Source: an uncultured Bacteroidota bacterium
GTDB lineage: Bacteria; Bacteroidota; Bacteroidia; Chitinophagales; Chitinophagaceae
Reading direction: 5' to 3'
Assembly: GCA_903904855.1 (NCBI GenBank)
Contig: CAIVEH010000167.1
Location: 1 to 64,000, forward strand
Length of the DNA stretch: 64,000 bases
In this document: in pieces, positions 41,189 through 56,580 of the stretch
Numbering within the stretch: position 1 is the stretch's first letter
Layout: each line of letters starts with the position of its first letter
Notes under the pieces: model-generated
What the model was told of the DNA's origin: nothing
What the model saw: only the letters and a program-made list of their open reading frames with translations
Databases searched by the model: none
Program-made: the position numbers and the translations under genes

Positions 41189-42763
41189 CTAAAATTTGAC
41201 AACTTTTTTTGTGCACCAAAGATAATTATCAACATGAATGTTCATTATGAATATTCCTTGAGGTAAATCTCGCACGTTTATTTCAACCGTGTTTGTATTG
41301 GTGCTATTTATTTCGATAAGTTTACTGCCAAGCATATTTAGTATGTCAATTCTTACTTGCTTTTGTTCATCACCGAATGAAATTGTACAAACTTCTGCAA
41401 CCGGGTTAGGATAAATATTCAATGAATGACCATTCCTGTTTTGATCGTTAATTGATGTTGCTGAAGCATTTCGGACAAGCCTTACATAATTGGAACCTCT
41501 GATGGCATCGCCCTGTGGACCATGTGAGTAGCCAGTATAAGTAACCCCACTTACAACAACTGTTTTAACGACAGCATATCCATATGGTGGCCCTACCTTT
41601 GGATCACTTCGCTGGCATCCAGCCCCATGCACATCGACCCAATGCGTTTGAGTTGAAGGCCAACCCAACGCTCTGCCAAACGGAACATAATCTGCTTCAG
41701 CGCCGTTGCTTGACCCAGAGAAATAGCCTTCGTGTGTAGTACCAGACCAATAATATGGATAATCCAACTGACCTGCTTCATTAATGATAGTACTACATTG
41801 GAAATAGTTAGTATCAATAGCAGGCAAACTATCATAGTCTGGAGCATGTGTATAATCTACAATACTCTGAAGTTCTTTTATATTCGGCATCCTCCAGTCA
41901 CTGTGACCTAAATAATTTGCGGCATTTTCTGTTCGTACCCAAGCCAACGCATTTTCCCAATTAAGCCCTGAGCCATTATCGGTCCTTGACCACATCAATC
42001 CAGTCGCATTATCTGTTGTAGTTTGGTCCCCGTTGTTTACAAAAGTATTGTATCCATAAGTAAGCGGGCCACGAACTAACTGAACATAGAAGGTTTTGGG
42101 CAGACCGCTAAGCACATCTACTGTATCATACCCTTTAATTCTTCCATCTGAGAAATTTACCCCAAAATCCTTAGTATAGCCAGATTCGCTGGGATTCTTG
42201 ATGAAAATATTCGCAGACATATATTGTTGGTCAATTACTCGTTCTCCATGTGCCGTATTGCCATATGCAAATTTGAAATAATTGGTGTCTATAAAAGGAG
42301 TTAACCCAACTGATGAAGTTGAACCACCTGGGTCTGTGCCCTTGCCACTATAAAGTGAGTAGAGTTCTTTTATCGTTGGAATCCGCCAGTCATTGTACCC
42401 GCCATAATTAATAGCATTTACTGTAGTAAGCCAATTTTGAGCAGTTGCGTAAGTCATTCTATTAGCTTTTACTGGCGGTGTATTGGTTGTGTTAGGACTA
42501 CGCATCCAGGTCAAACTTGTATTGTTATCATGAACTGTTTTCCCATCGGTACTAATAGAATAATTGGGCAACGTACCAATATAGGCAGCATCTTGCCCAT
42601 AATAATTCGCTCCAGGTGAAGGACAAGTAATTAAAAATAAGGTATCATAACATGTGGTTTGAGCCGGATCAACAATAGAATATGTTTGACCATTACCAAC
42701 ATTACTCAACGACAAATAAATGGACACAAATAAAATAACCCTTAGAGTAATGATTTTTCGCAT
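41189..42763 (-). CDS. DUF1566 domain T9SS-sorted protein
   Basis: TGLMWSRTDNGSGLNWENAL..LGHSDWRMPNIKELQSIVDY; C-terminal IYPNPVAEVCTISF..KKVVKF. Confidence 0.87.
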   Translation of the reverse strand: MRKIITLRVILFVSIYLSLSNVGNGQTYSIVDPAQTTCYDTLFLITCPSPGANYYGQDAAYIGTLPNYSISTDGKTVHDNNTSLTWMRSPNTTNTPPVKANRMTYATAQNWLTTVNAINYGGYNDWRIPTIKELYSLYSGKGTDPGGSTSSVGLTPFIDTNYFKFAYGNTAHGERVIDQQYMSANIFIKNPSESGYTKDFGVNFSDGRIKGYDTVDVLSGLPKTFYVQLVRGPLTYGYNTFVNNGDQTTTDNATGLMWSRTDNGSGLNWENALAWVRTENAANYLGHSDWRMPNIKELQSIVDYTHAPDYDSLPAIDTNYFQCSTIINEAGQLDYPYYWSGTTHEGYFSGSSNGAEADYVPFGRALGWPSTQTHWVDVHGAGCQRSDPKVGPPYGYAVVKTVVVSGVTYTGYSHGPQGDAIRGSNYVRLVRNASATSINDQNRNGHSLNIYPNPVAEVCTISFGDEQKQVRIDILNMLGSKLIEINSTNTNTVEINVRDLPQGIFIMNIHVDNYLWCTKKVVKF

Positions 42764-42824
42764 GACAACCGGTTTTGTTAATTGTTTAGACGTTTTCCAA
42801 GGGGAAAAGTCTTCTGCGCAAAAG

Positions 42825-42860
42825 ATGATCTTGGTCATCTTTTTTTATGACGAAGATCAT
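42825..42860. promoter_or_regulatory. Quasi-palindromic site ATGATCTTGGTCAT-N8-ATGACGAAGATCAT in a divergent intergenic region
   Basis: Arms are inverted repeats with one mismatch; each half is itself ATGA-N6-TCAT-like. Confidence 0.5.
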
Positions 42861-42872
42861 AATATCCTTTGT

Positions 42873-42902
42873 GCCAGAAATAATCTGAGGTGTCGTCTAA
42901 AT
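42873..42902 (+). promoter_or_regulatory. Putative ECF-sigma promoter, site A (GCCAGAA-N14-CGTCTAAAT)
   Basis: Shares both boxes and exact spacing with sites B and C; 46 nt upstream of the SUMF1-like gene start. Confidence 0.65.
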
Positions 42903-42943
42903 AATTAATAGGGCATATTTATTCAGAAAATAAAAGGTCGTTT

Positions 42944-44314
42944 ATGGTCAATTTGAAATTAAGAATAACCGCTGTTGCTTGTTTATTGGTGGTTTTTTCT
43001 ACACAATTAAATGCACAAACAATTAATGAAGCATTAATACCCGGAGGTGCATTCGAAATGGGCGACCATTATGGATTTGTAGATTCAGCCCACCCAAGTG
43101 ATGAAATTCCACTTCATGCAGTTAAAATCGATTCTTTTTACATCGCAAAAACAATAGCTACAAATCAGCAATACCTGCAATTTCTTGATTCTGCTTTGTC
43201 AAAAAGCCTGATTGAGGTACGTAGTAATATAGTGTACCTTACTGGTGACACCAACATTCTGTGCTACACAAATCAGTATTCATCATATTATAGCATAGGT
43301 TATGACGGACATTCGTTTTCCATTGTAGATTTCAGGGCACAACATCCCATGGTCGGCGTCATGTGGTTTGGCGCAGCAGCCTATTGCAACTGGTTAAGTA
43401 ATAAAAACGGATTGCAACAATGTTTTAATGAAACTACCTGGATTTGCGATTTTACAAAGAACGGTTATCGCTTACCAACTGAAGCCGAATGGGAATATGC
43501 TGGCAGGGGTGGTGATACTACACCTTATTACATATATCCATGGGGCAATACGCTGGATACCACAAAAGCAAACTGGCCAAATTCAGGTGACCCTTATGAA
43601 ACGGGAGCTTACCCCTACACTACACCTGTCGGGTTCTATGATGGCACATTGAAATTGAAAGCGGTTTGCGGCTGGCCAGGTAGTGCTACAATTTACATGA
43701 CTTCCAATGGGGCTAATAATTATGGGCTCTATGACATGGCAGGAAATGTGTGGCAGTTTGTTTATGACTGGTACTCCCGCAACTACTATAGTAGTTCTCC
43801 ATACAACAGCCCTCAGGGACCAACCACGGGCGATCTCATGCCGGATGGCAAACCCTACAGGGGTATGCGTGGCGGAAATTGGTACAATGGAGATATGATC
43901 AGTGGAGTTAATGATGGACATTCAAGAGTGTCAAACAGAGACCCGTCTTACTTCCGAGGACCTTTAGATCCCAATCATCCATGGTATCATGTGGGCTTTC
44001 GGGTAGCAAGAAACTTCAGCCACTCTACTGGCGTTGCTACAACTAATGCGAAGCCAAACCTATATTGCTGCACTTACCCGAATCCTTCCTCTGAATCGAC
44101 GATGATACAATTCTCTTTGCCTGAAGAGTCTTATGTCTCAGTGAAAATTTTCAACTATCTGGGGCAACTGCAAGCCACCCTGACAGATGGAAGACTGGCC
44201 GCAGGCCAACACGAATTTAAATGGAATGCATTAAATCAGCCCGCAGGTTTATATTTCTACATTCTTCAAACAGATAATCAGTTCATAAAAAACAAAATTA
44301 TACTAATAAAATAA
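42944..44314 (+). CDS. SUMF1/FGE-sulfatase-fold T9SS-sorted protein
   Basis: IPGGAFEMGDHYG..YRLPTEAEWEYAGRGG..YDMAGNVWQFVYDWYS..RGGNW..GFRVAR; C-terminal YPNPSSESTMIQFSLPEESYVSVKIFN. Confidence 0.88.
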   Translation: MVNLKLRITAVACLLVVFSTQLNAQTINEALIPGGAFEMGDHYGFVDSAHPSDEIPLHAVKIDSFYIAKTIATNQQYLQFLDSALSKSLIEVRSNIVYLTGDTNILCYTNQYSSYYSIGYDGHSFSIVDFRAQHPMVGVMWFGAAAYCNWLSNKNGLQQCFNETTWICDFTKNGYRLPTEAEWEYAGRGGDTTPYYIYPWGNTLDTTKANWPNSGDPYETGAYPYTTPVGFYDGTLKLKAVCGWPGSATIYMTSNGANNYGLYDMAGNVWQFVYDWYSRNYYSSSPYNSPQGPTTGDLMPDGKPYRGMRGGNWYNGDMISGVNDGHSRVSNRDPSYFRGPLDPNHPWYHVGFRVARNFSHSTGVATTNAKPNLYCCTYPNPSSESTMIQFSLPEESYVSVKIFNYLGQLQATLTDGRLAAGQHEFKWNALNQPAGLYFYILQTDNQFIKNKIILIK

Positions 44315-44325
44315 AACGCTGTGAT

Positions 44326-46119
44326 ATGAAAAAATTATTCTTATTCTGGTTGCTGTCCTGTTTCGGTTATTCATTAATTGCTCAGGAAAGCTTTATGGTT
44401 TCCACGGAAACAAGGTATTGGAATTCTTCTGAAACATATTTTGGATATACTCTGTTTGGGACGAGGGGCACATCCTATTTAATTGACTTTGAGGGGCATG
44501 TTATTCATACATGGAATATTGGTACTAATCCCAGGTTTACAGAGGCCGGAACATTACTGGACGCTGTAGGCGGAGATCCAAGTAATTCAAATCAGTGGAA
44601 AGAACTTGACTGGAATAGTACGGTAGTATGGAGTTATACCGAAACAAGGACCAATTACCACCCGCATCACGATTTCGAAAAAATATATAACCCTAAATTG
44701 GGTGACTCAACTTTCATATATATCGCGAATAAAGACTTAACTGCTACCCAATGCCTGAATGCCGGATGCGACCCATCTCACAGCTATACTGGCGCTCAGA
44801 TGGATGCCATCGTTGAGGTAGACAGGTCAGGTAACGTGATTTGGGAATGGTGCTTTTTCGATCATGTAGTGCAGGATATTGATGCGAGCAAACCAACTTA
44901 TGGTGTTATTGCTGGCACACCAGGCAGAATCAATCTCAATATCAGTGGCAACCCGGTCCAAAAAGACTGGTTGCATTGTAATTCCCTTGATTATAACCAG
45001 GATTCAGACCTCATAGTCATAAATTCAGTCCATGGCGAATTTTATGTAATAGATCATGGCAACACTTTTATCCCTTCCAATCCAGCAGGGAGTATTACTC
45101 TTGCTGCAACAAGTGCAGGTGATTTTAAATATAGATTTGGTGATCCGGCGAAATACAACCAGGGGGTAGCTCCTTCTGTAACAGCCAACTGGGAAAAGTC
45201 GACAGCCGGTAACAAACAAATTGGAGGTGCGCACGATATTCAATGGATAAAACCAGGATTGCCTGGAGCAGGGCATTTCATGCTTTTCAACAACGATGAA
45301 AATTTGTTTGAACTTACCCCCCAATCCTATATCTATGAAATAAATCCATTTCTGGATTCCAGCGGCACTAACACCGGGAACTTTGTCAATCCACCAAATG
45401 CTGGCTACAGGACAGTAAATTCACCAAACTCTAACCTGATGAAAGTTTCAAAAAATGAATCCAAACAAATTACCTGGAAATTTTCAAGTAAAAATAATAC
45501 ATCATTCTATAGCACCATTGGCGGTAGCGCACAACGATTACCAAATGGAAACACATTGATATGTTCGATGAATGATGGTCATTTTTTTGAAATTTCCCCG
45601 TTAGACTCGTTTATTGTGTGGGAATATATCAACCCCATGACAAGGGATGGGATAAAAGGAGTGAAAGTGGACAACTATCCCACCTATAACGGTGTATTTA
45701 GAGCATATAGGTACGATAGCACTCATCCTGCACTCAGTGGACATGATTTGACTCCCGGTCCCACAATGACTGGCAAAACGCCAAGTTATTGGACCCCTTC
45801 AACAATTCAAACCCTTGTTAAGCCTTTGGGGAAACCAATGTCAAATGATTTACTTAATCAGAACTATCCAAATCCTTTTTCTTATTCCACTACAATTGCG
45901 TTCGATATTCCTGAATCTAATCAGGTCAGCGTAAACATATTTGACTTATCAGGAAAGCCAGTAAGGTCACTCATCAACAAAAACTATGCTGCGGGAAAAT
46001 ACACACTTGTCTGGGATGGTACTGATGACAGGGGCATTCAAGTTGCAAGTGGAATGTACATATGTATACTCAAAACAAATGACCAGCAAGTGAGCAAAAA
46101 AATCGTATTCATTAAATAA
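44326..46119 (+). CDS. Arylsulfotransferase-like (ASST) T9SS-sorted protein, paralog 1
   Basis: GTSYLIDFEGHVIHTW..HHDFEKI..VDRSGNVIWEW..HDIQWIKPGLPGAGHFMLFNN..QRLPNGNTLIC; T9SS tail. Confidence 0.83.
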   Translation: MKKLFLFWLLSCFGYSLIAQESFMVSTETRYWNSSETYFGYTLFGTRGTSYLIDFEGHVIHTWNIGTNPRFTEAGTLLDAVGGDPSNSNQWKELDWNSTVVWSYTETRTNYHPHHDFEKIYNPKLGDSTFIYIANKDLTATQCLNAGCDPSHSYTGAQMDAIVEVDRSGNVIWEWCFFDHVVQDIDASKPTYGVIAGTPGRINLNISGNPVQKDWLHCNSLDYNQDSDLIVINSVHGEFYVIDHGNTFIPSNPAGSITLAATSAGDFKYRFGDPAKYNQGVAPSVTANWEKSTAGNKQIGGAHDIQWIKPGLPGAGHFMLFNNDENLFELTPQSYIYEINPFLDSSGTNTGNFVNPPNAGYRTVNSPNSNLMKVSKNESKQITWKFSSKNNTSFYSTIGGSAQRLPNGNTLICSMNDGHFFEISPLDSFIVWEYINPMTRDGIKGVKVDNYPTYNGVFRAYRYDSTHPALSGHDLTPGPTMTGKTPSYWTPSTIQTLVKPLGKPMSNDLLNQNYPNPFSYSTTIAFDIPESNQVSVNIFDLSGKPVRSLINKNYAAGKYTLVWDGTDDRGIQVASGMYICILKTNDQQVSKKIVFIK

Positions 46120-46131
46120 CATCGAACTATT

Positions 46132-47787
46132 ATGAAAAGAATAATCTTGGTAATTTTGGTATTGCTTGTTTTTGGTTGTACTTGTATCTCGCAGACACGA
46201 ACTGTAGGTGTATTTATTAATGACACCATTAACGCTTACCATGGATATACTTTGTTAGCTCCGAAGCATGATACGGTAACCTACCTCATCAACAATGACG
46301 GCCGCATTGTACATCAATGGAAGGCCAGTCACTATGCACCGGGGCAAGCCGTTTACCTGCTTCAAAATGGGAATCTGCTACGTCCTTGCGAGATTACCGG
46401 GCCTATGAGCACTGGTGGGGGCGAAGGAGGAAGAATAGAAGAATATACCTGGAATGATTCCCTTATCTGGTCAATCAACTACTCAACCAGTGCTTATATG
46501 CAGCACCACGATGTAAAAATGCTGCCCAATGGAAATATTATTATGTTGGTTGTTGAAAAAAAAACACTGGCTGATATAATAGCAGCGGGATTTGATACAA
46601 GCGATTTTCAGGCTGGTGTAATTTCTTCCGGGTATATGTTGCCCGATTGCATAATTGAAATTCAACCAACGCTTCCATCAGGAGGAAATGTAGTTTGGCA
46701 ATGGCATGTATGGGATCACCTTATTCAACATTTTGATGCAACTAAAGCAAATTATGGTGTTGTAAGCGCCCATCCCGAATTAATCTGTGATTCAGGTGAC
46801 CGACGCAAATTGCCTCAGTTCTGGAATCACATGAATAGTATTGATTATGATTCTACTTTTGACCAGATTGCTGTCAGTGTAAGAGGAAACAGTGAAGTAT
46901 GGATAATAGACCACAGTACCACAACCACGCAAGCCGCAGGTCACTCAGGGGGGGTGAGAGGAAAAGGAGGAGACTTGCTTTACCGGTGGGGGAATCCGAT
47001 GGCATATGATAGGGGAACAATAAGTGATCAAAAATATTTTGAGCAGCACGATGTTGAATGGATAAAAGCAGGTTCTCCCGGTGCAGGGCATTTACTTTGT
47101 TTTAATAATGGTGTAGGCCGAAGCTACTCTACGATTGATGAAATAATTCCTGCAGTAGATATGAGCGGAAACTATGTCGTACCGACATCTTCAGCCTTTG
47201 GCCCGACAAGCCTTACATGGACCTACACTGCAAGCCCACCTTCAAGTTTATATGCTCAGGATATTTCAGGCACTCAGCGATTGCCCAATGGTAATACACT
47301 AATAGATAACGGCCCTCTGGGAATATTTACTGAAGTAACTGCTGCCGGTACGATTGTTTGGAAATATATTAACCCTTGCACTGACACAGGACCATTGACG
47401 CAGGGAGACACAATCCCGGCCAACCCGGTCTTTGCTGGTGAGACAATGAATTCAGTCTTCAGGGTTTATAGGTATGCACCAAACTATCCGGCATTTAACG
47501 GTAAGACACTGACTCCAGGTAATTTTGTTGAAATTTATCCTGCAGCAGTAAACGAAGTATTCCAACAAAATACTATCAGGAATTATCCAAATCCATTCAC
47601 AGGTAAAATCTACGTTGATAATGTCTCCAGCGATGCGCATTTCCTACTTTTGAATATGACAGGACAGTTATTATGGTCAGGAGATCAAATTGAGCAATAC
47701 GATTTTTCCTCGATAAATGCAGGTTTATACCTGCTTAAAATAGTAACTCAAAATTCAAATCAAACGATAAAAATTATGAAACAGTAA
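46132..47787 (+). CDS. Arylsulfotransferase-like (ASST) T9SS-sorted protein, paralog 2
   Basis: VTYLINNDGRIVHQWKAS..QHHDVKMLPNGNI..HDVEWIKAGSPGAGHLLCFNN..QRLPNGNTLID; tail YPNPFTGKIYVDN. Confidence 0.83.
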   Translation: MKRIILVILVLLVFGCTCISQTRTVGVFINDTINAYHGYTLLAPKHDTVTYLINNDGRIVHQWKASHYAPGQAVYLLQNGNLLRPCEITGPMSTGGGEGGRIEEYTWNDSLIWSINYSTSAYMQHHDVKMLPNGNIIMLVVEKKTLADIIAAGFDTSDFQAGVISSGYMLPDCIIEIQPTLPSGGNVVWQWHVWDHLIQHFDATKANYGVVSAHPELICDSGDRRKLPQFWNHMNSIDYDSTFDQIAVSVRGNSEVWIIDHSTTTTQAAGHSGGVRGKGGDLLYRWGNPMAYDRGTISDQKYFEQHDVEWIKAGSPGAGHLLCFNNGVGRSYSTIDEIIPAVDMSGNYVVPTSSAFGPTSLTWTYTASPPSSLYAQDISGTQRLPNGNTLIDNGPLGIFTEVTAAGTIVWKYINPCTDTGPLTQGDTIPANPVFAGETMNSVFRVYRYAPNYPAFNGKTLTPGNFVEIYPAAVNEVFQQNTIRNYPNPFTGKIYVDNVSSDAHFLLLNMTGQLLWSGDQIEQYDFSSINAGLYLLKIVTQNSNQTIKIMKQ

Positions 47788-47871
47788 ACTTAATATTGCT
47801 TGTGGTTAAACCTCGGGGAAATTGAAACATCTACGATAATAGTTAAGACTAAGTTTATTAAAAAGCATTGG

Positions 47872-49548
47872 ATGGTAATAGAAGTATTATTCGACAGACA
47901 TATTATTTTTTTTAGAAGAGGATTTATTGCCATCCTGTTATTGATGATATATGCTAATTCTATAAGCGCCCAAGATTATTCGATAATTCTGGGTAGGCCG
48001 ACCGACACATCGATGACAGCCAATATTATGTTCGATCTGTCTGGCCAATTTTATTTAAAGTGGGGCACACAATCTGGCACTTACATTGATTCTACTGCGT
48101 TGCTCACTTATACTGCGAGAGTGCCCTATGTAGTTGATATGAACAATCTAACTGCCGATACCAAATATTATTATTGTGTTGCTTATAAAAACAACGGATC
48201 TGCAAATTTTACAATTAGCCCGGAGTATACTTACCACACTCAGCGACTACCTGGCAGCTCGTTCACATTTACAGTAGAAGCAGATGAGCACCTTTATGAT
48301 TACGGCAATCAGCATCTTTACCAGGTTTCATTGGCTAATGTGGCCCTGGATAATCCAGATTTCATGTTCACACTCGGCGATATTTTTGGCGATGACCACT
48401 ACCCATTTACCATCACGTCTCAACAAGTTGATTCTTTAAGAAGGGCTTACAGACAAAGACTTGGAGCAGTATGTAACTCTATCCCTTTTAATATTTGCCT
48501 TGGCAATCACGATGGAGAAAAGATGTATTATCTTGATACCCTCGCCCCAAATAATCTCGCTATCTGGTCCACGTTATGGCGCAAATATTATTATTCTAAT
48601 CCTGAACCGAATGGCTTTTATTCAGGCAATTCTAACGCTGAAGGCTTTGGGATTGGTTTACCCGAAGATTATTATTCCTTTACCTGGGGCAATGCTCTGT
48701 TTGTGGTACTGGATGCCTACAGGTTTGACTGCGATTCAGTTACTTCCCTTCAGGCCAAACCAAAAGGCTGGAATTGGACCCTTGGCTTAGCACAATATAA
48801 CTGGCTTAAAAATACACTCCAGAACAGTACGGCCAAATTCAAGTTCGTTTTTGTACATCACCCTTTAGGAGAAGATAGAGGGGGCATTATACCAGCTCAG
48901 CTTTTCGAATGGGGAGGACATGAACAAAATGGAACATACACCTTTGATACTCATCGCCCAGGGTGGGGAGTCCCCATTCAGCAGTTATTCGTGAATTATG
49001 GGGTAAATATCCTTTTTCAAGGACATGATCATCTCTTTGCTCATGAGGTGCTGGATAGTATCACATACCAGGAGGTGCCAATGATGGCTGACTCTACCTA
49101 TGTCAAAGGCAGTGTTAACACCGCTGCCTATACGGCAGATACATTGCAGAATAGTGGTTATGTCAGGGTCACTGTTTCTGCTTCATGTGTAAAGGTAGAT
49201 TATATTAAGAGCTACCTTCCACGAGATACAGTGACGGGAATTAATCACAATCATTCGGTGGCTTTTTCTTACACTATAGGTACTTGCGATTCAGCCGCAT
49301 TTGTTTCCAATCTATCGAAAAATATTAACCTAAACGTATTCCCCAATCCCGCAACCAATTTGGTCAATATTAGTTTCGACGATAATAGTCATGTGCATCT
49401 GATAAGACTCATAAATACTGTTGGCGGTAAAATAAGCCAAACTCAGGAAGATCATATTGATGTAAGTAGCATCCCCACTGGTTTATATTTTCTGAATATC
49501 CGGACCGAAAACTATCAAACAGTCAGAAAAATACTTGTGATTCATTAA
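47872..49548 (+). CDS. Metallophosphoesterase (purple-acid-phosphatase-like), T9SS-sorted, paralog 1
   Basis: FTLGDI, LGNHDGEK, FVHHP, FQGHDHLFA; FN3-like N-terminus; C-terminal VFPNPATNLVNISFD. Confidence 0.88.
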   Translation: MVIEVLFDRHIIFFRRGFIAILLLMIYANSISAQDYSIILGRPTDTSMTANIMFDLSGQFYLKWGTQSGTYIDSTALLTYTARVPYVVDMNNLTADTKYYYCVAYKNNGSANFTISPEYTYHTQRLPGSSFTFTVEADEHLYDYGNQHLYQVSLANVALDNPDFMFTLGDIFGDDHYPFTITSQQVDSLRRAYRQRLGAVCNSIPFNICLGNHDGEKMYYLDTLAPNNLAIWSTLWRKYYYSNPEPNGFYSGNSNAEGFGIGLPEDYYSFTWGNALFVVLDAYRFDCDSVTSLQAKPKGWNWTLGLAQYNWLKNTLQNSTAKFKFVFVHHPLGEDRGGIIPAQLFEWGGHEQNGTYTFDTHRPGWGVPIQQLFVNYGVNILFQGHDHLFAHEVLDSITYQEVPMMADSTYVKGSVNTAAYTADTLQNSGYVRVTVSASCVKVDYIKSYLPRDTVTGINHNHSVAFSYTIGTCDSAAFVSNLSKNINLNVFPNPATNLVNISFDDNSHVHLIRLINTVGGKISQTQEDHIDVSSIPTGLYFLNIRTENYQTVRKILVIH

Positions 49549-49561
49549 TGTTATATATCCG

Positions 49562-51289
49562 TTGTCTGTGAAAAAAAATCGACTTCTCTTCTTACTATGC
49601 CTGTTTTTAACTTCGGCATGTTATTCCCAACAATTACTTTTCACAGAACTCCTTTCAAGGCCTACAGCATCCGGGGTGACTATTCAGCTTATCTTTGCGG
49701 ATTCAGCACAAGTTTCCGTAGAATATGGCACGAGCAGTGGAGTTTATCCATACCAGACAGCCTGGCAAACATTTCCCGATAGCACCATGGCAACTACTGC
49801 ACTGACTGGGTTGTCCGCCGATACGAAATACTACTATCGCATACTTTATCGTAAGCCAGGTGATACGTTAAATACTGTTAGGCCAGAATATTCGTTCCAT
49901 ACACAGCGATCCGTGAGTAGCCCATTTACCTTCGATATTGAGGCCGATCCTCATGATGATTATAATAGCGACACTGCGCTCTACCACCAATGTCTGCTCA
50001 ACCAGTTGGCTGACAGTCCTGATTTCATGATTGACCTCGGGGATTTCCTAATGACTGATAAGCTACAAAACACGTCTGGTATAGTGCCCTATGATACCAT
50101 ACCCTATCGGTGTCGGTTGTTTAGGAAATTTTATTCGGTATCAGGCAATTCAGTGCCCTTGTTTATTGCAATGGGGAACCATGAAGGTGAGGCAGGCTGG
50201 TATTTGAATGGCACAGCCAACAGCATCCCTGTATGGGATGCACAGGTTCGAAAGAAATATTTCCTGAACCCGGAACCTGATAGTTTTTATACCGGAGATA
50301 CAACAAATTACCCTTTCATTGGAAAAAGGCAGACTTATTATGCATGGCAATGGGGTGATGCATTATTCATTGTACTCGATCCTTTCTGGTATACCAATCC
50401 TAAACCTGACTCTCTTAACGCCTGGAATTGGTCGTTGGGGTCATCCCAATATAACTGGCTGAAACAAACACTTCAGAATAGTAATGCAACATTCAAATTT
50501 GTATTCTCCCACCAGCTTGTAGGAGGAGCAGGATCGGGCCAGGGGAGAGGTGGTACCGAACCGGCTGATTTCTATGAGTGGGGAGGCGAAAATATAGATG
50601 GTACTCCAGGCTTTGCTACCCATAGACCGGGTTGGTACAAACCCATCAAAGACCTGCTCACAGAAAACCATGTAAATATCTTTTTCCATGGTCACGACCA
50701 CTTCTTTGCCAAACAGCAGAAGGATTGCCTGATCTACCAGGAAACGCCACAGCCAAGCCTTCATAACTTTAACTATCCGGCACAAGCTGCACAATATGGT
50801 TACGACTCAGGCCTTATCCTTTCCAATTCCGGACACCTAAGGGTAACGGTAAGCCCTATAGGAACACAGGTACAATACGTAAGAGTGTACTTGCCCTCCG
50901 ACACCAATGCAACTCATCATAACGGAGATATTGCGGCGACTTATTTTATCGGTACGCAAAACTGCTATGACTCTATAAACACCGGTACACCTGTGCTATG
51001 GAACAGCAACTATTTTGACGAAATGGTGTTTCCCAACCCATTTACAACCGAAACCAAAATATCGTTCGCTTTGGATAAAACTGAGGCTATTAACTTAGCT
51101 ATCTTTGACGAACAGGGTAAATTGGTAAGGACTCTGATTAATGGAAATGTTGTATCTGAGGGGAAGTATGACGTGTTATGGGATGGCAAATACAGTTACG
51201 GCGCTGATGCCAGACCAGGGGAATATTATTATGTCCTTCAGGGTGAGAAAACAGGCAGGAAAACAGGAAAAATAGTGCATATGAAGTAA
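49562..51289 (+). CDS. Metallophosphoesterase (purple-acid-phosphatase-like), T9SS-sorted, paralog 2
   Basis: IDLGDF, MGNHEGEAG, FSHQL, FHGHDHFFA; C-terminal VFPNPFTTETKISF..LVRTLINGNV. Confidence 0.88.
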   Translation: MSVKKNRLLFLLCLFLTSACYSQQLLFTELLSRPTASGVTIQLIFADSAQVSVEYGTSSGVYPYQTAWQTFPDSTMATTALTGLSADTKYYYRILYRKPGDTLNTVRPEYSFHTQRSVSSPFTFDIEADPHDDYNSDTALYHQCLLNQLADSPDFMIDLGDFLMTDKLQNTSGIVPYDTIPYRCRLFRKFYSVSGNSVPLFIAMGNHEGEAGWYLNGTANSIPVWDAQVRKKYFLNPEPDSFYTGDTTNYPFIGKRQTYYAWQWGDALFIVLDPFWYTNPKPDSLNAWNWSLGSSQYNWLKQTLQNSNATFKFVFSHQLVGGAGSGQGRGGTEPADFYEWGGENIDGTPGFATHRPGWYKPIKDLLTENHVNIFFHGHDHFFAKQQKDCLIYQETPQPSLHNFNYPAQAAQYGYDSGLILSNSGHLRVTVSPIGTQVQYVRVYLPSDTNATHHNGDIAATYFIGTQNCYDSINTGTPVLWNSNYFDEMVFPNPFTTETKISFALDKTEAINLAIFDEQGKLVRTLINGNVVSEGKYDVLWDGKYSYGADARPGEYYYVLQGEKTGRKTGKIVHMK

Positions 51290-51443
51290 GGCGCTATGTA
51301 GAATGTGCATAACGGATACCCATTCTCAGTTAATCCAAAACCAAGAAAGTTTCCAAGCGCAAGCTATTTTAGTGATAATATCACGTTTTTGGAGAATATT
51401 TATGAATTTTGTGTATTAAACGAATAATAAAATTTTCGGCTAA

Positions 51444-52013
51444 TTGTTAGAAGACTCGATTCTGATTGAAAAAGTAAAAGCAGGTAATCGATCTGCTTTT
51501 AATGAATTAGTCGGTCTTTACAGAAATAGGGTTATTAATACTTGCTACAAATTTTTATTAGATATAGAGGAGGCCGAAGACATTTCGCAGGAGGTTTTCC
51601 TTGAAGTTTATCAGTCCATAAAGTTCTTTCGTGGAGATTCGAAATTATCAACCTGGATATTACGAATAGCTGTTTCAAAAAGCCTTGATGAAATAAAAAA
51701 ACGAAAACGTAAAAAACGGGTATCATCAGCATTCAAAAAGGTACACCTGGAAGATTTAGCCAATTGGCTGGCAGGTGGCACTACCCCGGAAAAGCTATTA
51801 AGTGGAAAAGAAGACATGAAAGAAATAATTAAGGCAATGGATACATTACCTGATAACCAGCGTATTGCATTCACATTAAGTAAAGTGGAAGGTTATACCA
51901 ATACAGAGATTGCTGAAATAATGAAAACAACTATAATTGCAGTAGAATCTCTCATATATAGGGCAAAAAAGGAATTAATTCGAAAGCTGGTGGATATTTT
52001 AAAGAATGTTTGA
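51444..52013 (+). CDS. ECF-type RNA polymerase sigma-70 factor (TTG start)
   Basis: AEDISQEVFLEVYQSIKFFRGDSKLSTWILRIAVSKSLDEIKKRKR and LPDNQRIAFTLSKVEGYTNTEIAEIMKTTIIAVESLIYRAKKEL. Confidence 0.93.
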   Translation: MLEDSILIEKVKAGNRSAFNELVGLYRNRVINTCYKFLLDIEEAEDISQEVFLEVYQSIKFFRGDSKLSTWILRIAVSKSLDEIKKRKRKKRVSSAFKKVHLEDLANWLAGGTTPEKLLSGKEDMKEIIKAMDTLPDNQRIAFTLSKVEGYTNTEIAEIMKTTIIAVESLIYRAKKELIRKLVDILKNV

Positions 52014-52021
52014 GATTATCC

Positions 52022-52050
52022 GCCAGAATAATCATCAATAGTCGTCAAAT
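52022..52050 (+). promoter_or_regulatory. Putative ECF-sigma promoter, site B (GCCAGAA-N14-CGTCAAAT)
   Basis: Same boxes and spacing as sites A and C; upstream of the small TM protein gene. Confidence 0.65.
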
Positions 52051-52064
52051 ACAACAATAGTAAT

Positions 52065-52370
52065 ATGAATTCGCAGAAAGTAGAAATTGAAGCATTGCAA
52101 ATCCTTGACAAGTTTGAGGAATTGCCAGAATTGACACCATCCGCAGATTGGGATCAATCTCTTATGAGCAGAATTATTCAATCTAAACAATCTACAAGAT
52201 CAAAGATTTACCTTTCATCATTGAGTGCGTTGGTAGTATTCGTGATATTGTTTAATGCTGGCTTTGTTATGAAAGCTGTACGCAACTCTGACAATCCAAC
52301 TGTTAGTCATACGGAGGAATATCATACTCTTTCAAGGGAATTATTTATAAACCCAATCCCCAACAATTGA
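52065..52370 (+). CDS. Small single-TM protein, candidate anti-sigma factor (CnrY-like position)
   Basis: 101 aa, one TM segment (IYLSSLSALVVFVILFNAGFVM), immediately downstream of the ECF sigma gene. Confidence 0.65.
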   Translation: MNSQKVEIEALQILDKFEELPELTPSADWDQSLMSRIIQSKQSTRSKIYLSSLSALVVFVILFNAGFVMKAVRNSDNPTVSHTEEYHTLSRELFINPIPNN

Positions 52371-52373
52371 TCT

Positions 52374-52994
52374 ATGGACATATTCACTCAAAAAAAGCTG
52401 TTGGTTAGAGTTGTGATTTTATTGGTAATAATAAATACATGCTCCATTTGCATATTCTTATGGAAGGATGCTTTTAGGAAAGATCAACCTGCTCAACAAT
52501 TACACAATGATGAGTATAATGACGAGAACAGGACTGGAAATTCTGGACCATCACCACGAAATCGTGAGGATGAGAATGAGATCAGAAAAGATAAAAATGG
52601 AGGACCGCCCCAAAATGATGAGCACAAAGACGTAGCGCATATTTTAGAGCATGAATTAGGTTTAACGCAACAGCAGGCAGAACAAATCGGGAACATCAGG
52701 GAGTCCTTTTTTGAAAAAGAAAAAATATTGGAGGCAGTCATACGTGGTGAAAGGGATTCTATGAACATGCAAATGTTCAATAAAAATACAAACGAAGAAC
52801 AGCTAAAAAGCCTTGCTCATAGTGTATCTGAAAACGAGTATAAGATGGAATTGCTTCGTATTGATCAGGCCCAGCAATTAAAAAGAATTTGTACGCAAAA
52901 ACAATTAGAAAAACTTAATAACCTGGTAATAGAAATCCGAGATTATTTCAGGCCCGACAACAGACCGAACAGACAACCGTCACCCAGAAAGTAG
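52374..52994 (+). CDS. CpxP/Spy/CnrX-like periplasmic sensor with N-terminal TM anchor
   Basis: N-terminal TM; LTQQQAEQIGNIRESFFEKEKILEAVIRGERDSMNMQMFN..QLKRICTQKQLEKLNNLVIEIRDYF helical LTxxQ pattern. Confidence 0.75.
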   Translation: MDIFTQKKLLVRVVILLVIINTCSICIFLWKDAFRKDQPAQQLHNDEYNDENRTGNSGPSPRNREDENEIRKDKNGGPPQNDEHKDVAHILEHELGLTQQQAEQIGNIRESFFEKEKILEAVIRGERDSMNMQMFNKNTNEEQLKSLAHSVSENEYKMELLRIDQAQQLKRICTQKQLEKLNNLVIEIRDYFRPDNRPNRQPSPRK

Positions 52995-53012
52995 AATATT
53001 ATTAAGATGGGT

Positions 53013-53041
53013 GCCAGAATATTTAATAATAATCGTCAAAT
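53013..53041 (+). promoter_or_regulatory. Putative ECF-sigma promoter, site C (GCCAGAA-N14-CGTCAAAT)
   Basis: Same boxes and spacing as sites A and B; upstream of the YHYH gene. Confidence 0.65.
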
Positions 53042-53072: not shown

Positions 53073-54722
53073 ATGAAAAAAACGGGACTAACATTTCTGG
53101 CTATTTGCGTGCTGAACATTTGTGCATTTGCGCATGTTGTAGACTATGGGAACGTAATAATGCATCATTGGAACATCGAATCCAATAACAGCGCAATAGA
53201 AGGCTCATTTTATATGATGCGTGACGGGAAAGTATTTATTGATAAAGCTGATAATGAAATTGTTTCCTATCCTTTAAACGCTCTGTCGAAGGAAGATCAG
53301 GAATATGCAATGAAAAGGCAAGAATGTGTAAAGCAAATAAATAATAGGAAGGTTACACCTCCCATTTCAACTTCCCAGCCCATGCTTGATGTAAATTTCA
53401 GGCTTTATTTAACTGCATCGCTTTCAGTTATTTTTCTTTTATTACTACTTGGCTTTTCGAAAGGTATAGGGCAGCATTTTATCAGCAAAGACAAGGTAAG
53501 ATATGCTTACCCGATTCTAACAGTCGGTATTATTGCCACTCTTTTTGGCTTTAATAAAGCTTACCGGACAACCACTACCACAAATCCTGCTGTTATAGAT
53601 TCTGCGTTTACACCATTCAAACCCAATGTTATAACTTCTTGGGATACTACCTATTTCTATGTTCAGTCTCATGGTATTCCAACTACGCATGGCATGATGG
53701 TTGGTATAAGCAGCAACGGTTGGCAGCAGCAAGTGCCCATACCTCAGTGCTATCTTTTACCTACTAATGCATGGAGCATTCCGTTGAAACCAACAATAGC
53801 AACAAACCATATTCCCGTCGACACCATACATTTTACAAGGGGAGCAATAGCAATTGCAGTAAATGGCGTTCCAATATTCAACGAGCATACAAACACCGGT
53901 GCTGATGCTTTGGTGGCAGGGCAGCTGGATAATTATGGTGGGCATTGCGGAAGAGCGGATGACTATCACTATCATATTGCACCTCTTCACCTTTATGGGA
54001 CAACATCGGCCAATTTACCAATTGCTTATGCATTTGATGGCTTTGCTGTATATGGGTCACATGAACCCGATGGCACATCAATGGCAGCTTTAGATACTAA
54101 CCACGGCCATTTCGGGGTGGGTGGAGTATACCATTACCATGGCACAACAACCTACCCATATATGATAGCTCGTTTTGCGGGACAGGTAACTGAAGATGGT
54201 ACCCATCAATTAGTTCCTCAGGCGGCAGCAAGCCCGGTGAGAGGAGGCCAAAATCCTCTGCCAGGTGCCTTGATAACAAGTTGCCAACAAGTAGGCACAA
54301 ATGGGTATAGACTTATATATACACTAAGTGGAGTGAGCGATACTGTGGCATATAGCTGGACTCCAACAGGTATTTATACATTTGTTTTCAGCTCCCCTGG
54401 CTCGGCTCCCAGAGATAGCATATATACAGGGTTCATTCCTTGCTATGTTTTGCCAAATATTGTAAACGAAATTACTAACTTAGGGAACAGGCTTGATATT
54501 TATCCAAACCCTACGAATGGTATAATTTCCATAGCGCTGAATACACCGTTTATGGCCGGTGACGTGCAGAGCATTTCAGTTTATAATATTATGGGTCAAA
54601 CTGTGTTTCATGTGTTCGGATATACCCAAAACATTGACACAAGAAAATGGCCCAAAGGTAGTTACTTAGTGAAAATTCAACTTGCCGGAGAGCAGATAAA
54701 CAGAAAACTGATCGTTCAATAA
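53073..54722 (+). CDS. YHYH domain T9SS-sorted protein
   Basis: GHCGRADDYHYHIAPLHLYG..AFDGFAVYGSHEPDG..GVYHYHGTTTYPYMI; C-terminal IYPNPTNGIISI. Confidence 0.88.
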   Translation: MKKTGLTFLAICVLNICAFAHVVDYGNVIMHHWNIESNNSAIEGSFYMMRDGKVFIDKADNEIVSYPLNALSKEDQEYAMKRQECVKQINNRKVTPPISTSQPMLDVNFRLYLTASLSVIFLLLLLGFSKGIGQHFISKDKVRYAYPILTVGIIATLFGFNKAYRTTTTTNPAVIDSAFTPFKPNVITSWDTTYFYVQSHGIPTTHGMMVGISSNGWQQQVPIPQCYLLPTNAWSIPLKPTIATNHIPVDTIHFTRGAIAIAVNGVPIFNEHTNTGADALVAGQLDNYGGHCGRADDYHYHIAPLHLYGTTSANLPIAYAFDGFAVYGSHEPDGTSMAALDTNHGHFGVGGVYHYHGTTTYPYMIARFAGQVTEDGTHQLVPQAAASPVRGGQNPLPGALITSCQQVGTNGYRLIYTLSGVSDTVAYSWTPTGIYTFVFSSPGSAPRDSIYTGFIPCYVLPNIVNEITNLGNRLDIYPNPTNGIISIALNTPFMAGDVQSISVYNIMGQTVFHVFGYTQNIDTRKWPKGSYLVKIQLAGEQINRKLIVQ

Positions 54723-54749
54723 TTGACAATTACTTTAAGAAGTTTTCCT

Positions 54750-55997
54750 ATGAACAAATATCTGGGGATAATATGCGCTGCGTTGTTTGGCTTCCCGGTT
54801 TATGGACAGAGCGTAAGCAAGACTATGAAACATTTGCCTGACTCAGGCGAAACACTTCATTATACCACTACATTCGGGGAAGATGCTGGGTATAGCATTT
54901 ACACTCCTTTCTTTATAAACAACGGAGATGGCACAGTAACAGACACTGTTACGGGACTTATGTGGCAAAAAAACGATGGTGGTGAGATGACAATACAAAA
55001 TGCGCAATTATATTGTAATACACTCACTTTAGGTGGTTACACAAACTGGAGACTTCCTAATGCCTATGAAGGTTATAGTATTGTTAATCTTGGACACCTT
55101 AATCCTGCACTTGATACCAATTATTTTACCAAAAATAATGCCGAGTACTGGTGGACAAGTGATAGACAGGTGGGTGACACTTCTTTTATTTGGGTGACTA
55201 ATGCCGGTGGCGGTGTAGGTAACCACCCAATGACTGAAACAATCAGCGCAGGAGGAGTAAAAAGTTTTCATGTAAGGGCAGTACGAAATATTACAACGCC
55301 ACCTGTTATACCTTCACATTTTACAGATAATGGCGATGGCACTGTCACTGATAACCTGACTTCTTTGACGTGGCAGAAAGTGCTGGTGCAAGATACAATC
55401 ACCTGGGAGCAGGCCCTGAATTATGCTGACACACTAACATTAGCAGGACATACTGATTGGCGACTACCCAATATAAAGGAACTTCAATCTATCAGCGATT
55501 TAACGGTAACCAATCCTGCAATTAATCCGATTTTTACTTTAGGTACTGGCGCTAAATTTTACTGGTCGTCTACCACTCAATTTAATAATGCCCCTGATGC
55601 ATGGTATCTGAATACTCAATATGGCATCACGACGTACATTACCAAGACAAGCAATCTTTATGCTCTCTGTGTTAGAGGTAATACTTCTACTACCGAAATA
55701 AGCGAGATTGCTGCTACCACTTTAGCCTCGAATGCATTCCCAAATCCCGCCCATGGTAGGGTAACTATTAGCTATACTATTTATGATGCAAAAAGTGCAG
55801 CGATGACTATTAGAAATGTCATTGGCAAAAAGGTATTTGAACAGAATATTATTGGCTTTAAAGAAGGGGTTAACCAGCTGATATGGGAGGCACATGATAT
55901 GGCTGAAGGAGTTTACTATTATTCAATTGAGGTTGTAAAAAACGATCTTACAATACAACAGGGAAGTGGTAAAATAGCATTAATGAACAGAAATTGA
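54750..55997 (+). CDS. DUF1566 domain T9SS-sorted protein
   Basis: TGLMWQKNDGGEMTIQNAQLYCNTLTLGGYTNWRLPN; LAGHTDWRLPNIKELQSISDL; C-terminal AFPNPAHGRVTISY. Confidence 0.87.
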   Translation: MNKYLGIICAALFGFPVYGQSVSKTMKHLPDSGETLHYTTTFGEDAGYSIYTPFFINNGDGTVTDTVTGLMWQKNDGGEMTIQNAQLYCNTLTLGGYTNWRLPNAYEGYSIVNLGHLNPALDTNYFTKNNAEYWWTSDRQVGDTSFIWVTNAGGGVGNHPMTETISAGGVKSFHVRAVRNITTPPVIPSHFTDNGDGTVTDNLTSLTWQKVLVQDTITWEQALNYADTLTLAGHTDWRLPNIKELQSISDLTVTNPAINPIFTLGTGAKFYWSSTTQFNNAPDAWYLNTQYGITTYITKTSNLYALCVRGNTSTTEISEIAATTLASNAFPNPAHGRVTISYTIYDAKSAAMTIRNVIGKKVFEQNIIGFKEGVNQLIWEAHDMAEGVYYYSIEVVKNDLTIQQGSGKIALMNRN

Positions 55998-56001
55998 ATT
56001 C

Positions 56002-56580
56002 ATGGAGTTATCATCTTTTCAGATTGCCCGTGATTATTTTCAATTAGGTTACACACACGTGATACCCTTGGGGTATGACCACATTCTTTTCATTCTTGGT
56101 ATCTTTCTGCTTAATTCAAATCTCAAATCAGTTATTATTCAGTGTTCGGTATTTACTTTAGCTCATTCTATCACATTAGGATTGACTGCAACAGGATTTA
56201 TAATGCCAGATTCAAGAATAATAGAACCAATGATTGCCATCTCTATCTTATTTGTAGCAATCGAAAATATTTTTCACAATAAAATAAATGCCTGGCGATT
56301 GATAATAATTTTCTTTTTCGGGTTAATACATGGTATGGGGTTTGCAAATGCCATTAAAGATATTGGATTATCTAAAACCTATTTTCTCGGATCTTTATTA
56401 TTCTTCAACATAGGCGTGGAGTTTGGGCAAATCGCAATAATATTAAGTGCTTATCTTTTGATAGCCAAGAGGTTTGGTAAAAAGGAGTGGTATAACAAGC
56501 GAATTGTCTATCCTGTTTCAAGCTTAATCGGTTGCATAGCTTTATATTGGACTATTGAGAGAATATTCTTTGTGAGTTAG
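56002..56580 (+). CDS. HupE/UreJ-like integral membrane protein
   Basis: GYTHVIPLGYDHILFILGIFLL, FTLAHSITLGL, FGLIHGMGFANAI, FNIGVEFGQIAII. Confidence 0.9.
   Translation: MELSSFQIARDYFQLGYTHVIPLGYDHILFILGIFLLNSNLKSVIIQCSVFTLAHSITLGLTATGFIMPDSRIIEPMIAISILFVAIENIFHNKINAWRLIIIFFFGLIHGMGFANAIKDIGLSKTYFLGSLLFFNIGVEFGQIAIILSAYLLIAKRFGKKEWYNKRIVYPVSSLIGCIALYWTIERIFFVS

Follow-up and report, generated by a model that had tools for sequence, protein, structure and literature searches.

What reads a short bipartite element that recurs ahead of three gene groups in a single cluster of an uncultured Bacteroidota bacterium (Chitinophagaceae)? The cluster lies in a 64,000-nt stretch of contig CAIVEH010000167.1, here called the window, and includes a gene for an extracytoplasmic function (ECF) sigma factor. 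The original prediction held that this sigma factor reads the element GCCAGAA-N14-CGTC and thereby switches on a type IX secretion system (T9SS) cluster. We find that the element is conserved, fixed in its spacing and specific to one sensor type in orthologous loci, and therefore almost certainly represents a promoter read by the sigma factor encoded at 51444-52013. In all likelihood, the locus is a variant of the familiar ECF sigma regulon whose sensor is CnrX/CpxP-like and whose targets are exported surface proteins.

Three exact copies of a motif with fixed spacing

GCCAGAA-N14-CGTC matches exactly three times in the window, always on the plus strand, with starts at 42873, 52022 and 53013 (sites A, B and C), just as had been predicted. 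Exactly 14 nt separate the boxes at all three sites and the spacer sequences are unrelated, which also agrees with the prediction. The earlier notation CGTC(T)AAAT is not right, as CGTC is followed by A or T without an inserted T. Permitting one mismatch leaves the count at the same three sites, compared with 0.41 expected from shuffles, and when the intergenic stretches were shuffled 2000 times, just 16 shuffles contained any 7+4 bipartite word in three copies.

Across the genome (5.6 Mb), four places match the 11-base core exactly, which is about chance level genome-wide. Three of these are sites A, B and C, clustered in 10 kb, each in an intergenic region and directed toward a gene; the fourth lies on a different contig and overlaps an open reading frame. 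The longer form GCCRGAA-N13-TCGTCNAA matches the genome exactly at sites A, B and C only, and the strict pattern GCCRGAA-N12-RTCGTCWAA also occurs only three times in it. A genome-wide scan, proposed along with the original prediction, thus yields few matches beyond the cluster.

Conservation of the motif in orthologous loci

Querying GTDB contigs with the sigma factor returned 63 loci, derived from Bacteroidota (among them Flavobacteriaceae, Chitinophagales and Bacteroidales metagenome-assembled genomes (MAGs)) as well as from Ignavibacteria and Kapaibacteria MAGs, many of them from lakes. One locus, L187, belongs to a cultured bacterium, Flavobacterium aciduliphilum DSM 25663. Where the same sensor gene follows the sigma ortholog, the motif is found near the end of the sigma gene in 46 of 48 cases, compared with none of the seven related sigmas that lack that sensor next to them. 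The first box starts 1-15 nt past the sigma stop in 40 of the 46 motif-bearing orthologs, and in most loci the motif ends ~10-20 nt ahead of the anti-sigma start; in the window, site B lies 8 nt past the sigma stop and 14 nt ahead of the anti-sigma start. The spacer measures 14 nt in all 41 strict matches, with no match at 8-13 or 15-21 nt. Both boxes are at or near maximal column information, which is lower for the flanks and the AT-rich spacer, and the consensus derived from the orthologs reads (T/C)GCC(A/g)GAA-N12-(A/G)T-CGTC(A/T)AA. The proposed comparison of orthologous loci therefore came out in favour of the prediction, with the boxes kept and most of the spacer and flanks varying. Both boxes of site A are retained in one related genome in which part of the spacer has changed, and site C is kept in genomes G032 and G011 and present in a diverged form in G012. 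In L204 of G052, where sigma identity to the window is down to ~50%, the element is still recognisable with an altered -35 box. One of the copies, L177, is of the Flavobacteriaceae type and groups inside that family; its contig is labelled Candidatus Nitrotoga and was probably misbinned.

Scanning 820 kb of loci with a matrix derived from site B yielded 83 matches, against 4 in reversed sequence. Most lie upstream of the same gene families as in the window, some on the opposite strand. Matches other than site B precede genes for SUMF1-like proteins (L163, L183, L184, L199), purple-acid-phosphatase (PAP)-like proteins (L163, L168, L190, L191, L194), YHYH proteins (L157-L159) and an Lcl_C protein (L198), and form a second site upstream of the sigma gene itself in several Flavobacteriaceae-type loci and L192. 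In L191, L194 and L199 the target gene occupies the opposite strand, with the motif reversed to match.

The sigma/anti-sigma/sensor/YHYH/Lcl_C/HupE set is syntenic across genera (G032, G011 and G012), and G052, from another family, adds both PAP genes to it. The block of SUMF1, arylsulfotransferase (ASST) and PAP genes upstream of sigma, together with site A, occurs only in close relatives of the window, whereas other loci carry these families downstream of sigma instead. No relevant papers came out of a literature search on YHYH proteins in connection with sigma factors in Bacteroidetes.

Strict matches off the main sigma contig were seen in L217 (G460:C388) and L226 (G463:C138). One lies between a second sensor-like gene, which it follows, and a gene for a small, secreted protein rich in His and Gly; the other two share a contig with a PAP-like gene.

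The ECF sigma factor as probable reader of the motif

The sigma gene encodes a 189-aa protein with matches to PF04542 and PF08281 and none to region 3, which is the ECF layout of regions 2 and 4 only and bears out the predicted ECF gene between the sites. GCCRGAA-N12-RTCGTCWAA has 42 matches in 44 sigma-bearing genomes, 38 of them on the sigma contig, and 0 control matches. A close sensor homologue is encoded in 10 of the 399 genomes examined from the order, and half of these (5/10) have a strict match; the remaining 389 genomes hold 5 strict matches versus ~15 control matches in all, so that the 5 stray matches can be regarded as background. Moreover, motif-bearing sigmas share residues that are mostly missing from motif-free relatives, for example E83 and K85, which from general knowledge of ECF sigmas we take to lie near region 2.4, and K147 and N153, presumably in region 4. 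The strict co-occurrence and the shared residues point to this sigma as the reader, in support of the original prediction; recognition is inferred here from co-occurrence. What emerges is a bipartite -35/-10 element of fixed spacing that lies upstream of linked genes and tracks the sigma factor.

The sigma on G000:C258 (L101) is a paralog with 43% identity that has its own small protein and sensor-like gene and no motif. Similarly built ECF modules with other promoters therefore exist in the genome.

Candidate anti-sigma factor and sensor

Position, size and conserved synteny make the 101-aa product encoded behind site B a candidate anti-sigma factor. NCBIfam offers no specific name for the sigma, the candidate anti-sigma or the sensor. 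For the 206-aa sensor product, AlphaFold predicts an N-terminal helix, a variable linker and a helical hairpin (pLDDT 82). The best folds in Foldseek were CpxP, ZraP and CnrX, with CpxP at the top (probability near 1, E-values 0.04-0.3). A profile search gave matches including ZraP and Spy, and the Pfam family Metal_resist (PF13801) fell just under its cut-off. Coiled-coil matches to haemagglutinin in the profile search were taken as chance, and searching the PDB by sequence with only the sensor as query returned nothing of use.

In an alignment of 47 sensor sequences, Met130, Met134, Met158 and Cys173 are kept in 87-98%, and there is no conserved histidine ligand set. Cys173, a single cysteine, is retained in 46 of the 47 and occupies the leucine place of an LTxxQ-like repeat. 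An unpaired cysteine at this predicted periplasmic position could bind metal or form a disulfide. The predicted structure and the fold and family matches suggest that 52374-52994 encodes a membrane-anchored periplasmic sensor with a CpxP/ZraP/CnrX-like fold.

Weighing the evidence for a sigma-dependent promoter

That the three matches reflect chance or a duplication artefact has next to no probability. The 11-base core by itself is not enriched genome-wide, as chance would have it, but the unrelated spacers of the three sites exclude duplication and the conservation of the motif in dozens of loci excludes chance, which is also rejected by the shuffles, the matrix scan, the genome specificity counts and the fixed spacing. 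Alternatively, the boxes could be a site for another regulator, or an RNA or DNA element, next to which the sigma gene lies by coincidence. In favour of this explanation, the link between sigma and promoter is drawn from sequence. However, it accounts poorly for the fixed 14-nt spacing with a CGTC -10 box, the orientation always toward a gene and the strict co-occurrence with one sigma subgroup, and the gene lists of the loci show no other common regulator gene. We consider it very improbable.

Several points nevertheless count against a promoter read by this sigma and the circuit built on it. The genome has 13 sigma-like matches, and other ECF sigmas could read overlapping promoters. The -35 box GCCAGAA is unlike the usual AAC type, so that of the predicted ECF-type boxes the CGTC -10 box is typical and the -35 box is not. 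The one-span candidate anti-sigma matches no family in Pfam or NCBIfam, and the E-values of the sensor fold matches (0.04-0.3) bear on that assignment as well. The orthologs were found via the sigma and the matrix was made from site B, and some selection therefore enters the counts for site B; more independent tests come from the sites other than B and from counting the pattern genome-wide. Finally, the model as a whole is derived from sequence.

Genes of the cluster and proposed circuit

The coordinates of the genes and sites are given in Table 1. Most of the linked genes encode proteins with T9SS sorting tails. The claim that the sigma switches on a T9SS cluster thus holds for cargo proteins and not for the secretion apparatus; T9SS machinery is not among the motif genes, since the strict motif in the genome is limited to the three cluster sites. 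The listed start of the gene at 47800..49548 is TTG, and the true start may be further downstream. The minus strand at 41189-42838 encodes another T9SS-tailed Lcl_C protein, divergent from the site A operon, and the motif scan of the window found no motif directed at it.

Table 1. Sites and genes of the ECF sigma cluster in the window.
Feature	Coordinates	Strand	Evidence
Site A, GCCAGAA-N14-CGTCTAAAT, before SUMF1/ASST/PAP operon	42873..42902	+	exact match
SUMF1-like (FGE-sulfatase domain) protein, T9SS sorting tail	42944..44314	+	PF03781, PF18962
Arylsulfotransferase-like protein, T9SS tail	44326..46119	+	PF05935, PF18962
Second arylsulfotransferase-like protein, T9SS tail	46132..47787	+	PF05935, PF18962
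Purple-acid-phosphatase-like metallophosphoesterase, T9SS tail	47800..49548	+	PF00149, PF16656, PF18962
Second purple-acid-phosphatase-like protein, C-terminal FlgD_ig/T9SS-type tail	49562..51289	+	PF00149, PF13860, PF18962 (below cut-off)
ECF sigma factor	51444..52013	+	Sigma70_r2, Sigma70_r4_2; nearest solved structure SigW
Site B, GCCAGAA-N14-CGTCAAAT	52022..52050	+	exact match; conserved in 46/48 orthologs
Candidate anti-sigma, 101 aa, one hydrophobic segment	52065..52370	+	position, size, conserved synteny
Putative membrane-anchored periplasmic sensor, CpxP/ZraP/CnrX-like fold	52374..52994	+	PF13801 just below cut-off; AlphaFold, Foldseek
Site C, GCCAGAA-N14-CGTCAAAT, before YHYH operon	53013..53041	+	exact match
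YHYH-domain protein, T9SS tail	53073..54722	+	PF14240, PF18962
Lcl_C-domain protein, T9SS tail	54723..55997	+	PF07603, PF18962
HupE/UreJ-like membrane protein	56002..56580	+	PF13795

We propose, with high confidence, a circuit in which a promoter read by the ECF sigma serves three operons under anti-sigma and sensor control. The motif would act as the -35/-10 promoter for the sigma encoded between the sites. The sigma would be held at the inner membrane by the short one-span anti-sigma, which would cooperate with the membrane-anchored periplasmic sensor, and detection of a signal by the sensor would release it to transcribe the operons. Site B would drive the anti-sigma and sensor genes as negative feedback, site C the YHYH/Lcl_C/HupE genes and site A the SUMF1/ASST/ASST/PAP/PAP genes. 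Most products of the three operons bear T9SS sorting tails, and the circuit is very probably a real, conserved control of secreted surface enzymes.

In most loci the promoter sits between the sigma and anti-sigma genes, so the sigma would activate its own brake and not itself directly. In the window, the site A block ends with a PAP gene 154 nt upstream of the sigma gene, and a simple scan predicted no terminator between the two; transcription from site A may therefore run on into the sigma gene and provide a possible positive feedback. In several relatives a TAnnTTTG box of the housekeeping type lies 46-63 nt upstream of sigma, and no exact box is found there in the window. The overall frequency (14 of 61 loci versus 9 of 61 in reversed sequence) is not convincing.

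Comparison with known systems

The closest solved sequences to the sigma are those of SigW/RpoE-type sigmas, which share self-contained control by a sigma and a membrane anti-sigma with a sigma-specific promoter. In the usual ECF scheme the sigma lies inside its own autoregulated operon, whereas here the promoter is usually found between sigma and anti-sigma.

On the level of organisation, the locus is reminiscent of CnrYX/CnrH, the cobalt-nickel resistance system of Cupriavidus metallidurans, in which CnrX and the short anti-sigma CnrY together retain CnrH (PMC4598750, PMC9045368). There, an ECF sigma, a short membrane anti-sigma and a membrane-anchored periplasmic sensor with a helical hairpin are encoded together, and sigma-dependent promoters precede the anti-sigma and the target operon (PMC4598750, PMC9045368); the window pairs its ECF sigma with a candidate anti-sigma, a predicted sensor of this build and putative promoters at corresponding places. 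With this precedent, the arrangement in the window appears analogous. However, the order here is sigma-anti-sigma-sensor with the promoter after sigma, and the sigma is not a CnrH orthologue, being nearer to SigW and RpoE (E-values of 1.2e-32 for SigW and 1.6e-15 for CnrH). Furthermore, of the His/Glu/Met type of metal ligands, the sensors show three conserved Met and no conserved histidine set, and the targets are T9SS cargo, with no RND efflux pump in the three operons.

Within Bacteroidota, CGT -10 boxes mark ECF-type promoters (SM6) in Flavobacterium psychrophilum, including that of one ECF/anti-sigma operon (PMC9723704). The SM6 sites described there differ in preceding T9SS machinery, flotillin-like and other genes, and a GCCAGAA -35 box was not found in the text consulted (PMC9723704). 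SigP/PorXY of Porphyromonas gingivalis likewise ties an ECF sigma to type IX secretion, but by a two-component route to the secretion machinery, whereas cargo proteins are targeted here; the proposed SigP motif is unlike ours (PMC4800418).

What the signal could be

The signal could be a metal, with the sensor binding periplasmic copper or another soft metal, or reacting via its cysteine, and then releasing the sigma; equally, it could be general envelope or protein-folding stress or a nutrient change, and we give each of the two somewhat less than an even chance. In favour of a metal, an MbnP/MbnH pair follows the sensor gene in L161, L173, L174 and L176 (in L176 followed by a YHYH gene that the motif precedes), the motif directly precedes a CueO-like T9SS-tailed multicopper oxidase gene in L170, and such an oxidase follows the sensor in L182, with others adjoining the cluster. 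The recurrence of copper-related genes in or beside some loci, together with the conserved Cys and three Met positions of the sensors, also speaks against stress or nutrients, and the modelled fold resembles that of nickel/cobalt-responsive CnrX and of ZraP. On the other hand, the sensors have no conserved histidine ligands, the Metal_resist match is below its cut-off, the window's own regulon lacks an efflux pump or copper gene, the copper-type genes of L178 and L179 sit in the operon of a second sigma, and the literature of its time described the link between MbnP/MbnH and copper as unproven (PMC3621798). The missing histidines suit stress or nutrients, as do the top fold match to CpxP and the profile matches to ZraP and Spy, and phosphatase- and sulfatase-type cargo would also suit nutrient scavenging. 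In line with this, an ECF CGT-box promoter set in F. psychrophilum is induced under low nutrients (PMC9723704).

The MbnP/MbnH and multicopper oxidase genes in some loci make copper or thiols in the periplasm a reasonable guess for the signal, and general envelope stress fits the modelled sensor fold about as well as copper. We tentatively suggest, while regarding it as rather doubtful in its entirety, a trans-envelope module, widespread in Bacteroidota and Ignavibacteria and probably spread horizontally, in which a membrane-anchored CpxP/CnrX-like sensor with conserved Met and Cys detects periplasmic copper or thiol stress and the ECF sigma answers with surface enzymes exported by the T9SS and not with an efflux pump. 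MbnP/MbnH (MauG-type) pairs also occur together with a YHYH protein in ECF sigma/sensor operons from Bacteroidota and Ignavibacteria, and within the extent of these loci they are far from any methanobactin gene.

Implications

Little has been established about which promoters Bacteroidota ECF sigmas use and which inputs they respond to, and classical class I anti-sigmas accompany only ~6% of them (PMC7406223). Through the orthologous loci, the proposed regulon is better supported than the window by itself could show: dozens of species jointly define a sigma, the promoter GCCRGAA-N12-RTCGTCWAA, the likely controls and the targets. This supplies a strict pattern with which to search for the regulon, as well as a ready reporter with which to look for the signal, and places YHYH, Lcl_C and T9SS-tailed PAP and ASST proteins in a testable context.

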